From: Oscillospiraceae bacterium | GTDB lineage: Bacteria > Bacillota > Clostridia > Oscillospirales > Oscillospiraceae | Reading direction: 5' to 3' | NCBI GenBank assembly: GCA_022795735.1 | Contig: JAAWHG010000009.1 | Location: 1-64,000 of the forward strand | DNA: 64,000 nucleotides | Part shown: in pieces, positions 15,584 through 52,082 of the stretch | Layout of the letters: each line of letters starts with the position of its first letter | How positions within the stretch are numbered: the first letter of the stretch is position 1 | Translations under genes and position numbers: made by a program | Notes under the pieces: generated by a model | The model's database searches: none | The model's input: only the letters and a program-made list of their open reading frames with translations | What the model was told of the DNA's origin: nothing

Positions 15584-16120
15584 ATGGATTTGACGGAACG
15601 CCGGCTGTCCGGCGAGACCATTTTTGAGGGAAATATTATTAAGGTGGGGCTGGATCAGGCCCAACTGCCCAACGGAAAAATTGTGTCCCGCGAGGTGGTG
15701 TACCACCCCGGCGGCGTGGCGGTGCTGGCGCTGGACGAGGATGAGACGGTGACGCTGGTGCGGCAGTTCCGCTATCCCGTCGGGCAGGTGATCCTGGAAT
15801 TGCCCGCAGGCAAGATTGACCCCGGCGAGGATACCCTTTTGGCCGCGAAAAGGGAGCTGAGCGAGGAAACGGGCGTGGAGGCCGGGGACTGGACTTATCT
15901 AGGCTATGCTTTGGCCTCGCCCGGCTTTTGCGACGAAGCCCTGCATATGTATCTGGCCCGGGATTTGCGCCGGGTAGAGTGCCATCCGGATGTGGACGAG
16001 TTCTTAGAGGTGACAGCTTTACCCTTTCAGGAGTTGGTCAGGATGGTGATGGCAGGCTCCATCATCGACGCCAAAACGGTAGCGATGACGCTCAAGGTAA
16101 AGACGCTGCTCGGAATGTAG
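15584..16120 (+). CDS. NUDIX hydrolase, ADP-ribose pyrophosphatase type
   Basis: The 178-residue protein contains a complete Nudix box: GKIDPGE, then seven residues, then RELSEETGV. The upstream LVRQFRYPVGQVILELPAG is typical of ADP-ribose pyrophosphatases, which split ADP-ribose into AMP and ribose 5-phosphate. A GGGGGA-type site precedes the ATG. It lies just after the aminotransferase on the same strand and is probably co-transcribed. Confidence 0.9.
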   Translation: MDLTERRLSGETIFEGNIIKVGLDQAQLPNGKIVSREVVYHPGGVAVLALDEDETVTLVRQFRYPVGQVILELPAGKIDPGEDTLLAAKRELSEETGVEAGDWTYLGYALASPGFCDEALHMYLARDLRRVECHPDVDEFLEVTALPFQELVRMVMAGSIIDAKTVAMTLKVKTLLGM

Positions 16121-48895: not shown

Positions 48896-49378
48896 TTAGG
48901 CGTGACGCTTTCTCGTGTAGGTGAGGTAGGTGTAGGGAATGCCGCCGGGGCAGCGGCGGACGATTTCCCGGGTATACAAGGTTTCGTCAAAGGGCGGGAA
49001 GAAGGTATCCCCCGCTACCGGGCAGTCGATTTCGGTGATATAGAGCTTGTCTGCCAGGGGCAGCGCCTCCTGATAGACGCGGGCGCCGCCCGAGACATAG
49101 AGGTCAAGGCCCTCGGCTTCAGCCAGCGAGACGGCTTCGGCCAGCGAACCCGCCCGCAGGCAGCCCGGGGCTTGGAAGTCTGGGTCGCGGGAGAGAATGA
49201 TGTTGCGGCGGTTGGGCAGAGGACGCCCGATTTCGGCATAGGTGCGGCGGCCCATGACCACGGCTTGGCCGGTGGTCAGGTCCCGGAACCGGTGTTTTTC
49301 GTCGGGGAGGTCCCAGGGTATTTTGCCGTCCCGGCCGATCACGCGGTTATGCGCGTAGGCAACGACGATGGCGATCAT
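48896..49378 (-). CDS. folA: Dihydrofolate reductase
   Basis: Reduces dihydrofolate to tetrahydrofolate with NADPH. The 160-residue product is of normal length. Visible are IVVAYAHNRVIGRDGKIPWD with the catalytic acidic residue in DLPDEKHRFR, the NADPH-binding VVMGRRTYAEIGRPLPNRRN and LYVSGGARVY. It ATGA-overlaps the preceding folB-folK gene. It is the last pathway step in the cluster. Confidence 0.96.
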   Translation of the reverse strand: MIAIVVAYAHNRVIGRDGKIPWDLPDEKHRFRDLTTGQAVVMGRRTYAEIGRPLPNRRNIILSRDPDFQAPGCLRAGSLAEAVSLAEAEGLDLYVSGGARVYQEALPLADKLYITEIDCPVAGDTFFPPFDETLYTREIVRRCPGGIPYTYLTYTRKRHA

Positions 49379-50202
49379 AGATTTTCCTCCAAATCCCGCG
49401 CCAGCTCGTCGATGGTCTTTTTCAAAATGGGATGGCGCACGTTGGGCGCGATTTGGCGCAGCGGCTCGAGGACGAATGTACGCTTGTGCATCTCGACATG
49501 GGGAACGACGAGATCGCTGGTCTCAAAAACGGCGTCGTCGTAGAGCAGCAGATCGAGGTCCAGCGTGCGCGGACCCCAGCGGACGGCGCGCTCCCGGTGG
49601 GCGTCCTGCTCAATCCGGTGCAGCGCGTCGAGCAGCGCCTGCGGCGTGAGCCAGGTGCGCAGGGAGAGGCAGGCGTTGAGAAAGTCGTCCTGCTCCACGC
49701 CGCCATAGGGCGCGGTCACAAGGTAGGGGGAGACCTGCTTCACCCGGCAGCCCCGGACGCGGCCCAGCGCCGCGACCGCCCCGTCGAGATAGCCTTTCTT
49801 GTCGCCCAGGTTGGAGCCGAGGGCGATATAGGCGGTGTGCCAGCGGCGGGTGATTTGAAAGGATACGGTTTCCAGCGGCAGGCCCACCGGCGCCCACGGC
49901 TTTTTCAGCGTCAGGCCGACCCCGGCGAGCTTGGGCCATTGGTCGAGCAGCGCCGCCGCCAAATCCTCCGACGCGGCCTCAATGGTCTTGCGGGGATGCT
50001 CTTTTGTATAGGCGGTGGCGAAGGCGCAGACGGCTCCATAGTCCACCGAGTCGTCCAGCTCGTCCCGCGCGCCGGCCGTCCCCGCCGGCAGGTACAGGGT
50101 CAGGCTGAGCAGAAACTTCTGGCCGAGCTTGGTCTCCTCCGGCAGAACGCCGTGGTTGGCAAAGACGGTGAGGTCCTCGATATGAATCCGATCAAAGTCC
50201 AT
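49375..50202 (-). CDS. folBK: Fused dihydroneopterin aldolase and HPPK (FolB-FolK)
   Basis: A 275-residue bifunctional enzyme. Residues ~1-117 are dihydroneopterin aldolase (IEDLTVFANHGVLPEE, DDSVDYGAVC, IEAASEDLAAALL). Residues ~122-275 are 6-hydroxymethyl-dihydropterin pyrophosphokinase (AYIALGSNLGDKKGYLD, QDDFLNACL, RWGPRTLDLDLLLYDD). The two make 6-hydroxymethyldihydropterin and then its diphosphate for FolP. It overlaps folP at its start and folA at its end. Confidence 0.95.
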   Translation of the reverse strand: MDFDRIHIEDLTVFANHGVLPEETKLGQKFLLSLTLYLPAGTAGARDELDDSVDYGAVCAFATAYTKEHPRKTIEAASEDLAAALLDQWPKLAGVGLTLKKPWAPVGLPLETVSFQITRRWHTAYIALGSNLGDKKGYLDGAVAALGRVRGCRVKQVSPYLVTAPYGGVEQDDFLNACLSLRTWLTPQALLDALHRIEQDAHRERAVRWGPRTLDLDLLLYDDAVFETSDLVVPHVEMHKRTFVLEPLRQIAPNVRHPILKKTIDELARDLEENL

Positions 50203-51022
50203 GTTCGCCGTCTCCTTCCCGCACTACCGCCTGCGCCATCCGGACGGCGCGGACGTTTTCCTTGACATCGTGGACGCGCACAAAGGACGCGCCGTGCAGC
50301 ACGGCGAAGACCGTCGTGACCAGCGTGCCCTCAACCCGCTCCGAGGCGGGGAGGTCGAGGGTGAGGCCGATGCACGATTTGCGTGAGGTGCCCAGCAGCA
50401 CTGGATAGCCGAGCCGGGCCACCTGGTCTAGGCGGTGGATCACGGCCAGATTTTGCTGGTAGGACTTCGCGAAGCCGACGCCTGGGTCGAGGATGATGGC
50501 GTCATCGGGGATTCCGGCGGCCTTCGCGATGGAGACGCTTTGCAGAAGGTCGCGGCACAGCTCGACGGGGAAGTCCTGATAGACGGCTTCTTTTCTGTTG
50601 TGCATCAGGCAGCAGGGGACGCGGTGGGCGGCGATCAGGGCCGCCATGTCCGGGTCGTATTGCAGGCCCCAGATGTCGTTGACCATATCGGCCCCCGCCC
50701 GCAGCGCCGCCGCGGCGACGCCGCTTTTATAGGTGTCCACCGAGACGGGGATATCAAAGCGGGCCTTGACCGCCTCGATGACCGGCACGACCCGGTCGAT
50801 TTCCTCCTGCACGCTGATCTGGGTGTAGCCGGGGCGGGTGGACTCGCCGCCGAGGTCCAGAATGGCCGCGCCGTCCCGAATCATCTCCTCGGCGTGGGAC
50901 AGGGCGCGGTCGCGCTCGGTCCAGCGCCCGCCGTCGGAAAAGGAGTCGGGGGTGCAGTTCAGGATGCCCATCACATAGCAGTCCTGGGCGGTGTTAAACT
51001 CGTGATTGCCGATTTTCATCAT
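50192..51022 (-). CDS. folP: Dihydropteroate synthase
   Basis: Joins 4-aminobenzoate to hydroxymethyldihydropterin diphosphate; the sulfonamide target. The 276-residue TIM-barrel protein shows MGILNCTPDSFSDGG, LDLGGESTRPG, ADMVNDIWGLQ, DPGVGFAKSYQQN and LLGTSRKSCIG. Start codon choice is uncertain: ATG at 51022 is used, since an upstream GTG begins only two bases after the HD-gene stop. It overlaps folB-folK by 11 bases. Confidence 0.95.
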   Translation of the reverse strand: MMKIGNHEFNTAQDCYVMGILNCTPDSFSDGGRWTERDRALSHAEEMIRDGAAILDLGGESTRPGYTQISVQEEIDRVVPVIEAVKARFDIPVSVDTYKSGVAAAALRAGADMVNDIWGLQYDPDMAALIAAHRVPCCLMHNRKEAVYQDFPVELCRDLLQSVSIAKAAGIPDDAIILDPGVGFAKSYQQNLAVIHRLDQVARLGYPVLLGTSRKSCIGLTLDLPASERVEGTLVTTVFAVLHGASFVRVHDVKENVRAVRMAQAVVREGDGEHGL

Positions 51023-51045
51023 GTTATCGCTCGCTTTCTCCACGG

Positions 51046-51522
51046 TCAGCCGCGGAAGACCAGGTTTTTCTTTTCCGCCGCCCAGTTGCAGCCGGGCTCC
51101 GACGGACAGAACAGACAGAGCCGCGAGGCCTTGTCCGCGCGGTAGAGCAGTCCGGCGAGGCCGTCGCGCCGCGCCGTCTCCGGGTTCCGGTGGCAGGAGA
51201 CGGCCTCTAAGACCGCGTCCCGCTCGGCGGCGGTGAAGCCGCAGCCGTCCAGAATTTCCCGCGCGGGGGTCAGGCCGGCCCGCTCGTGGGGGACTCCGTC
51301 CGGTCCGGCGCGGCCAAGGTCGTGGACCAGCGCCGCCGCGTAGATCAGGGCCTTGGGGACGCCGAGGCCGCGTTCGAGATTTTCAATCCAGGCCAGACGG
51401 GCCACGTCGGTCAGGTGGGCGATACCGTGCCGGCAAAAGGGCCGGTCCCGCTCCCGCTCCGCGATGGCGGCGAGACGCGCCCGCCACAGGGGGTGGCGGC
51501 AAATCCGGTCGGCGCGCTCCAT
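51046..51522 (-). CDS. HD-domain phosphohydrolase in the folate operon
   Basis: A 158-residue HD-superfamily protein with H...HD...D metal ligands in CRHGIAHLTDVARLAW and AALVHDLGRAG. The C-terminus has a Cys cluster (LCLFCPSEPGC) ahead of a basic end. The family hydrolyses phosphomonoesters, cyclic phosphates or nucleotides. It sits between folE and folP, three bases after folE. The operon otherwise lacks an enzyme to remove phosphates from dihydroneopterin triphosphate, so it is a candidate for that step. That function is inference only. Confidence 0.82.
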   Translation of the reverse strand: MERADRICRHPLWRARLAAIAERERDRPFCRHGIAHLTDVARLAWIENLERGLGVPKALIYAAALVHDLGRAGPDGVPHERAGLTPAREILDGCGFTAAERDAVLEAVSCHRNPETARRDGLAGLLYRADKASRLCLFCPSEPGCNWAAEKKNLVFRG

Positions 51523-51524
51523 CC

Positions 51525-52082
51525 TCAGTGCCGCTCCAGCATCCGGTAGAACTGCTCGCGCAGCGCCGGGTCGGTTTCAAACACACCCCGCATGGAGACC
51601 GTGGTGGTGCGGGTTCCAGGGCGCTGGACGCCGCGCATAGTCATACACATGTGCTCCGCCTCCAGCAGCACCATGACCCCCTGGGGGGCCAGCTCACGCA
51701 TCATCGCGTCGGCGATCTGGGCGGTCATGCGCTCCTGAATCTGTAAGCGCTTGGCGTAGACCTCCACGGTGCGGGCCAGCTTGCTCAGGCCGGCGACCGC
51801 GCCGTTGGGGAGGTAGGCCACGGCGGCGGTGCCGTAAAAGGGGAGCATATGGTGCTCGCAGAGGGAATAGAAGGGAATGTCCTTTTCCAGTACCAGATCG
51901 TTTCGTTCGACAGAAAAGCGCTTGTGCAGATGGACCGCCGCGTCGTCGGTATAGCCGGCGGCCAGCTCCGCATACATTCTGGCGATCCGCTCGGGGGTCT
52001 CGCGCAGGCCCTCGCGCGCCGGGTCCTCGCCGATGCCCTCCAGGATCAGCCGGACGCCCTGTTCAATCTTTGACTTGTCCAT
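51525..52082 (-). CDS. folE: GTP cyclohydrolase I
   Basis: Converts GTP to 7,8-dihydroneopterin triphosphate, the first step of folate synthesis. The 185-residue product has the zinc motif [20 protein letters not shown] and [14 protein letters not shown], plus [16 protein letters not shown] weak GGTGAGA-type site precedes the ATG. It is first of the folate run and has its own promoter. Similarity to type IA enzymes is clear. Confidence 0.97.

Follow-up and report, generated by a model that had tools for sequence, protein, structure and literature searches.

A conserved HD-domain protein of a clostridial folate operon as a candidate dihydroneopterin triphosphate hydrolase of the FolQ2 family

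In this study we analysed a window of 64,000 nucleotides (positions 1 to 64,000 of contig JAAWHG010000009.1) from an Oscillospiraceae bacterium, a gut-type anaerobe with a genome assembly of 2.40 Mb in 70 contigs (90% complete). The minus strand of the window carries a folate operon in the order folE-HD-folP-folBK-folA, in which the neighbours of the HD gene were named by their NCBIfam and Pfam matches. The first gene, folE (51525..52082, 185 aa), codes for GTP cyclohydrolase I, which makes dihydroneopterin triphosphate (TIGR00063 with 221.5 bits, cut-off 181.6; PF01227 with 251.8 bits). It is followed by the gene of an HD-domain phosphohydrolase, the FolQ2 candidate (51046..51522, 158 aa, ATG start; the plus-strand frame of 51046-51522 is interrupted by a stop), by folP for dihydropteroate synthase (50192..51043, 283 aa; TIGR01496 with 318.6 bits, cut-off 162.6), by a folB-folK fusion (49375..50202, 275 aa; TIGR00525 with 97 bits and TIGR01498 with 143 bits, each above cut-off) and by folA for dihydrofolate reductase (48896..49378, 160 aa; PF00186 with 160.6 bits). 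The genes are tightly packed: 2 nt separate folE from the HD gene and the HD gene from folP, folP and folBK overlap by 11 nt, and folBK and folA by 4 nt. A sigma-70 promoter scan returned a single weak site, against a mean of 0.5 (sd 0.8) in shuffled sequence. An earlier sequence-only reading of this DNA had placed an HD hydrolase between folE and folP and had listed folE, folP, folB-folK and folA as present. Open reading frame, Pfam HD match and same-strand neighbours bear out the former, and the NCBIfam and Pfam matches the latter.

That reading had also put the HD protein forward as a candidate for a missing dihydroneopterin phosphate hydrolase. This idea is not novel, since it has been in print since 2007, when the gene for dihydroneopterin triphosphate dephosphorylation was called still missing in most bacterial genomes and HDIG-type proteins in folate clusters were named FolQ2 and proposed, unverified, as FolQ alternatives (de Crecy-Lagard et al. 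2007, PMC1971073). A reconstruction of gut vitamin synthesis from 2019 also includes FolQ2 among its pathway roles. No experimental test of FolQ2 was recognised in the literature that we searched, which lay mostly outside the subscription journals. The window protein shares with FolQ2 proteins such as CPE1020 the HD type, the location in a clostridial folate gene cluster and the proposed step (PMC1971073), a likeness to CPE1020 by description and not by alignment. It belongs to the HD superfamily, with PF01966 above cut-off, and lies in a folate cluster, as FolQ2 proteins do. The candidate idea is supported by the operon, by co-occurrence and by the lack of NudB, and the co-occurrence data strengthen it. 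To the hydrolase prediction, which was already published, this study adds counts of co-occurrence that extend to genomes using FolE2, the fusion with FolC, carriers that lack a Nudix alternative, the motif of a dinuclear site and a nearly invariant set of four cysteines. The cysteine set, the FolC fusion and the co-occurrence with FolE2 go unmentioned in the accessible part of the 2007 paper.

The window protein matches the Pfam model HD (PF01966) with 33 bits (cut-off 22). The HDIG model TIGR00277 is matched by all 18 members of our set A1 (E up to 0.01), with the window protein under the model cut-off. Residue conservation was counted over 80 distinct sequences from the loci retrieved; the phylum-level carriers described below enter this alignment with 30 loci from 101 carriers, so that their diversity is sampled in part. 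The pattern H...HD...H...H...D is diagnostic of a dinuclear HD site (PMC8177086), and all six residues are present in every sequence covering them. The first His, H36 (codon 51415..51417, minus strand, as are all codons given here), whose role we take from this motif, is His in 79 of 79 covering sequences. The HD pair H67-D68 (51319..51324), the presumed second-metal ligands H79 (51286..51288) and H111 (51190..51192) and the last Asp of the motif, D130 (51133..51135), are found in 80/80. Overall, invariant positions are E24, R27, C30, H32, H36 and R42 (79/79 sequences covering them) and H67, D68, H79, H111, D130, R134, C136 and C139 (80/80). These residues fit a dinuclear HD metal site. Dinuclear HD phosphohydrolases typically have an Arg three residues ahead of the first His (PMC8177086). 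This Arg is missing here, the position being G33 in the window protein and mostly D in its relatives; in its place R27, R42 and R134 are invariant.

An AlphaFold2 model built from an 18-sequence alignment is confident (pLDDT 94.1, pTM 0.90). The best match with VIA-align was 2pq7, an uncharacterised HD protein (Z 13.0, rmsd 3.3, 138 aligned), and SAMHD1 (4bzc; Z 11.0, rmsd 3.2, 141 aligned) and YpgQ (5dqw; Z 10.7, rmsd 3.3, 132 aligned) matched as well. As judged from the model, the window protein has an HD fold; Z values of this size in helical folds single out no function. The statement on the fold rests on VIA-align, since Foldseek with the same model gave nothing at E up to 0.001. Structures of YfbR were among the weak Foldseek matches. 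YqeK was absent among the best 50 structural matches listed, which leaves room for a likeness to it. A sequence search of solved structures returned 2pq7 (E 0.073) and a chemokine (E 0.58), neither of them significant, and none of the structural or sequence matches of the window protein is to an enzyme with known activity on pterins.

Several known enzymes can be set beside the window protein. With the NudB/FolQ Nudix pyrophosphatases it would share the predicted reaction, but these form an unrelated family: the window protein has the HD motif, its only Pfam match (E up to 1) is HD, and no Nudix model of NCBIfam was matched (E up to 1). Among HD proteins YqeK is described as a dinuclear diphosphatase, YpgQ as a mononuclear dNTP diphosphatase and SAMHD1 as a triphosphatase (PMC8177086). 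YpgQ, which acts on (d)NTPs, has the HD fold in common with the window protein (5dqw) but differs in its mononuclear Mn site (H29/H58/D59/D124). YqeK, an Ap4A hydrolase, has the same six-residue dinuclear motif, but its model TIGR00488 is not matched by the window protein at E up to 1; seven of the 18 members of A1 match it weakly (best E 7.5e-5). The sequence-only reading had offered archaeal MptB as a useful precedent. MptB is an HD-type, Fe-dependent cyclic phosphodiesterase and, likened here by description alone, also has a phosphorylated dihydroneopterin as substrate. However, its substrate is the 2',3'-cyclic phosphate, and it opens a cyclic phosphodiester. We rejected it as the main model for this different chemistry. 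The precedent is thus weak, and in chemistry a nearer match is offered by two HD diphosphatases, YpgQ with its (d)NTP substrates and the dinuclear YqeK, which acts on Ap4A.

A cluster of cysteines near the C-terminus, which had been suggested as a possible site for a further metal, proved to be real and conserved, but it is only part of the set, which also includes the equally conserved N-terminal C30. The codon of C30 lies at 51433..51435 (79/79 covering sequences) and the codons of C136-x2-C139-x5-C145 at 51088..51117 (C136 and C139 80/80, C145 79/80). All four are aligned in 78/80 distinct relatives; one exception is cut off by Ns, and the other (L179) lacks C145 and has a substitute Cys further on. 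C30 is six residues outside H36 and C136 six residues outside D130. In HD proteins the first His and the last Asp of the motif bind the same metal. Since C30 and C136 each lie six residues outside ligands of one metal, C30 could well meet the C-terminal cysteines in space. The spacing C-x2-C-x5-C is that of AddB and Cas4. These two proteins also have an iron staple made of one N-terminal and three C-terminal conserved cysteines, and in a protein related to the iron-staple proteins a Zn ion can take the place of the cluster (PMC3466216). From its sequence the four-Cys set resembles a second metal site of this kind, an Fe-S/Zn staple in which Zn would be equally possible. AddB and Cas4 are RecB-type nucleases, unlike the window protein, which has an HD fold and Pfam HD as its only domain and whose staple is a prediction from sequence. 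To our knowledge an HD hydrolase with an Fe-S staple would be a new combination, and we know of no four-Cys set in YpgQ.

A scan of GTDB contigs gave 18 relatives of the window HD protein with 39-60% identity, and their loci were compared with the folE, folP and folBK proteins of the window. The order folE, HD, folP, folBK is kept at 12 of the 18 loci and also at L019, where the HD match is split by Ns. Three loci (L010, L014, L017) show HD-folP-folBK without folE, L010 beginning 58 bases ahead of the HD match. L016 has folE-HD and part of FolB, and L018 has the HD gene alone on a contig of 7.2 kb. The record of L016 is labelled Coriobacteriaceae, so the arrangement may reach past one phylum. 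Homologues are also present in the named species Eisenbergiella tayi (L005) and Pseudoflavonifractor phocaeensis (L002).

Linkage was then compared over 59 regions, from 38 carriers of the HD gene (37 and the window) and 21 non-carriers with FolK, with L017 and G169 counted as one genome. In 36/38 carriers the HD gene either is fused to a same-strand fol gene or has one within 800 bp. The nearest upstream fol gene is folE in 20 carriers (once at 706 bp), folC in five, folK in four and a fused folC in two, and seven have none within 800 bp; folP lies downstream in 30/38. In the remaining two carriers, G136 and G181, inspection showed that the HD gene adjoins genes of pABA synthesis, in G181 in the order HD-pabA-pabB-pabC-folE-folP-folB-folK. 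All 38 class-level copies therefore lie in folate or pABA clusters. Two carriers of one genus have FolC-HD fusion frames of 552 aa (G169; L087:4773-6431) and 560 aa (G041; L093:4794-6476). In the 552-aa frame, residues 22-385 match folC above cut-off, and residues from about 424 to 534 match HD-type models under their cut-offs. Other members of the family that bears the fusions have folC and HD genes that overlap or almost touch. A later role in folate synthesis would also agree with the linkage to folC and pab genes, which in this respect speaks against the triphosphate step.

A class-level census covered 196 genomes with a minimum completeness of 90%. At 1e-5 a profile of the family matched 125/196 genomes, but the scores are bimodal: they range over 168-238 bits in 38 genomes, and the remaining HD proteins score 58.9 bits or less. 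The 38 above the gap (at least 168 bits) were taken as the family. They span 17 family labels by our own count. FolE was found in 64 of the 196 genomes, FolK in 59 and both in 56. All 38 carriers have FolE and FolK, and none of the 140 genomes without that pair carries the HD gene (Fisher p ~4e-27, a value that ignores kinship). FolE2 and the HD gene are both absent from the three genomes with FolK but no FolE (G107, G178, G194). A phylum-level census of 398 genomes (threshold 1e-20) gave 101 carriers, 96 of them outside the class set, and 255 genomes with FolE; 98/101 carriers have FolE. FolE2 is an enzyme unrelated to FolE that yields the same product (PMC1971073), and the FolE-less carriers G416 and G476 both have it; in G476 it precedes the HD match by 80 bp. 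The third, G542, which lay outside the FolE2 search, is 90% complete but fragmented into 190 contigs, and its HD match begins at a contig end; other listed carriers with its genus label have FolE. The co-occurrence with FolE and FolE2 suggests that the HD gene tracks the supply of dihydroneopterin triphosphate from either enzyme family. The main weakness of the FolQ2 reading is that 18/56 genomes with FolE and FolK lack the HD gene. Some are congeners of carriers, as in the mixed genus g31 (G120 and G174 with, G022 and G051 without the gene), so another solution exists, and the triphosphate step does not have to rest on the HD gene.

We therefore looked at other enzymes that could act at this step. 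The claim that no enzyme removes the triphosphate has to be qualified: three Nudix proteins are present in the window genome, one of them inside the window (15584-16120). This one is NudE/ADP-sugar-like by NCBIfam, under every cut-off, and not NudB-like. Another, on contig C30, is NudC, an NAD+ diphosphatase (above cut-off), and the third is MutT-like, under every cut-off. The NudB model matched none of the three at E 1e-5 or better, and a scan of the whole genome for NudB gave a weak match of a protein on contig C9 (22.6 bits, cut-off 103). The sequence-only reading had named a NudB-like gene in every carrier as the pattern that would speak against the candidate. This pattern did not hold: the NudB cut-off was reached in 0/56 genomes with FolE and FolK (and in 1/14 control genomes), and in carriers G041 and G186 the sole Nudix protein is a NudF-type orthologue of the ADP-sugar-type Nudix of the window (phmmer 151.8 and 147.8 bits).

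Replacements in genomes without the HD gene were mostly rejected. Compensating numbers of Nudix proteins were not seen (medians 4 in carriers and 5 in non-carriers, p 0.12, not significant). A pattern search found no Nudix gene inside the fol operon in the 21 HD-less fol regions, and the sole Nudix-pattern match in all 59 regions was an 81-aa ORF about 5 kb from the cluster (L101). No replacement gene is common to all HD-less clusters, their recurrent neighbours being lineage-specific. The best NudB-like protein (L205:521-949; about 62 bits to NF006961, cut-off 103) belongs to G163, an HD-less genome whose family label is shared by five relatives that carry the gene. Present in 1/57 genomes, this protein was rejected as a general replacement. 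In 4/18 HD-less genomes, all of one family label (G075, G097, G156, G191), the position just upstream of folP, elsewhere that of the HD gene, is taken by a YfcE-type metallophosphoesterase (L131:9085-9585, L132:8771-9274, L136:5019-5507 and L140:8966-9529; family tested for two of the four). As far as sequence and position indicate, it may replace the HD enzyme there. Besides these four and the protein of G163, no replacement was found in the 18 genomes.

Taking gene, operon, conservation, co-occurrence, fusion and predicted fold as the observations, and substrate, products and metals as the predicted part, we consider the window protein to be an HD-superfamily metallo-phosphohydrolase of the FolQ2 family that probably acts as the main-line dihydroneopterin triphosphate hydrolase (a probability of roughly 0.7). 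In such an enzyme a dinuclear metal site of H36, H67, D68, H79, H111 and D130 would activate a water molecule, which would cleave the polyphosphate chain of dihydroneopterin triphosphate. Most likely pyrophosphate would be released, as by YpgQ with (d)NTPs; alternatively the whole triphosphate might leave in one step in the style of SAMHD1. R27, R42 and R134 would be candidate grips for phosphate or pterin. The four cysteines probably bind one structural site (Zn or an Fe-S cluster) that would tie the N-terminal loop to the C-terminal tail. A more speculative extension, which we hold only tentatively, is that FolQ2 is an enzyme with two metal sites, a dinuclear HD phosphohydrolase with a Cys4 Fe-S (or Zn) staple. 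Such an enzyme, widespread in a mostly anaerobic phylum, would need one or two steps to turn dihydroneopterin triphosphate into dihydroneopterin, and through it the start of folate synthesis might come to depend on iron-sulphur status or on oxygen.

The dihydroneopterin monophosphate step is usually ascribed to a non-specific phosphatase. Hence the HD protein might instead be a dihydroneopterin monophosphate phosphatase, with an unrecognised enzyme taking off pyrophosphate first. The genomic context would be identical, and HD monophosphatases exist, such as YfbR, whose structures were among the weak matches above. However, a mononuclear site is described for the HD monophosphatases YfbR and YGK1 and a dinuclear one for the diphosphatase YqeK (PMC8177086), and it is the dinuclear motif that the FolQ2 family has. 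Moreover, the triphosphate step would be left empty in G041 and G186, where the sole Nudix is the NudF-type orthologue. We regard this alternative as rather unlikely. Somewhat less likely still is a role in house-cleaning or regulation within the folate operon, with the hydrolase acting off the main line on damaged or surplus pterin or on GTP-derived phosphates. The 18 of 56 genomes that do without the gene, congeners of carriers included, would fit such a role, and the conserved cysteines could be a redox or oxygen sensor, but the strict dependence on FolE/FolE2 and FolK across 17 family labels is tighter than an accessory would show.

Least probable of all, and in our view very unlikely, is that the step is carried out by a generic enzyme of the Nudix or HAM1/RdgB type and that the HD protein is an unrelated passenger of the operon. 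At least one Nudix protein is present in 56/56 genomes with FolE and FolK, and HAM1/RdgB is present in the window genome, so a generic or promiscuous enzyme could perform the step. A Limosilactobacillus reuteri protein is, by the title of a report by Kachi et al. in 2024, a third family of such enzymes and is said to be of HAM1 type. Against a passenger stand the linkage and co-occurrence, which are too tight for one, the absence of HAM1 from all 59 fol regions and the existence of the FolC-HD fusion.

If verified, the main-line triphosphate hydrolase of HD type would close the gap of the missing step for many anaerobes, including folate-making gut bacteria. It would also firm up those reconstructions of vitamin B9 synthesis that already use the FolQ2 role, and it would be a case of convergent evolution of one metabolic step. 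The four-Cys set offers a concrete biochemical prediction that is open to testing. Two further observations concern neighbouring folate genes. At L131, L132, L136, L140, L123 and L090 the FolP protein is about 395 aa long and is extended at its N-terminus by about 115-130 aa, and similarly long FolP proteins are found at many phylum-level loci. In three genomes of one genus without FolK, FolE matches contain one internal TAA (G013:C38:9999-10559, G044:C2:193016-193576 and G092:C4:74217-74777), and these are possibly decaying folate genes.
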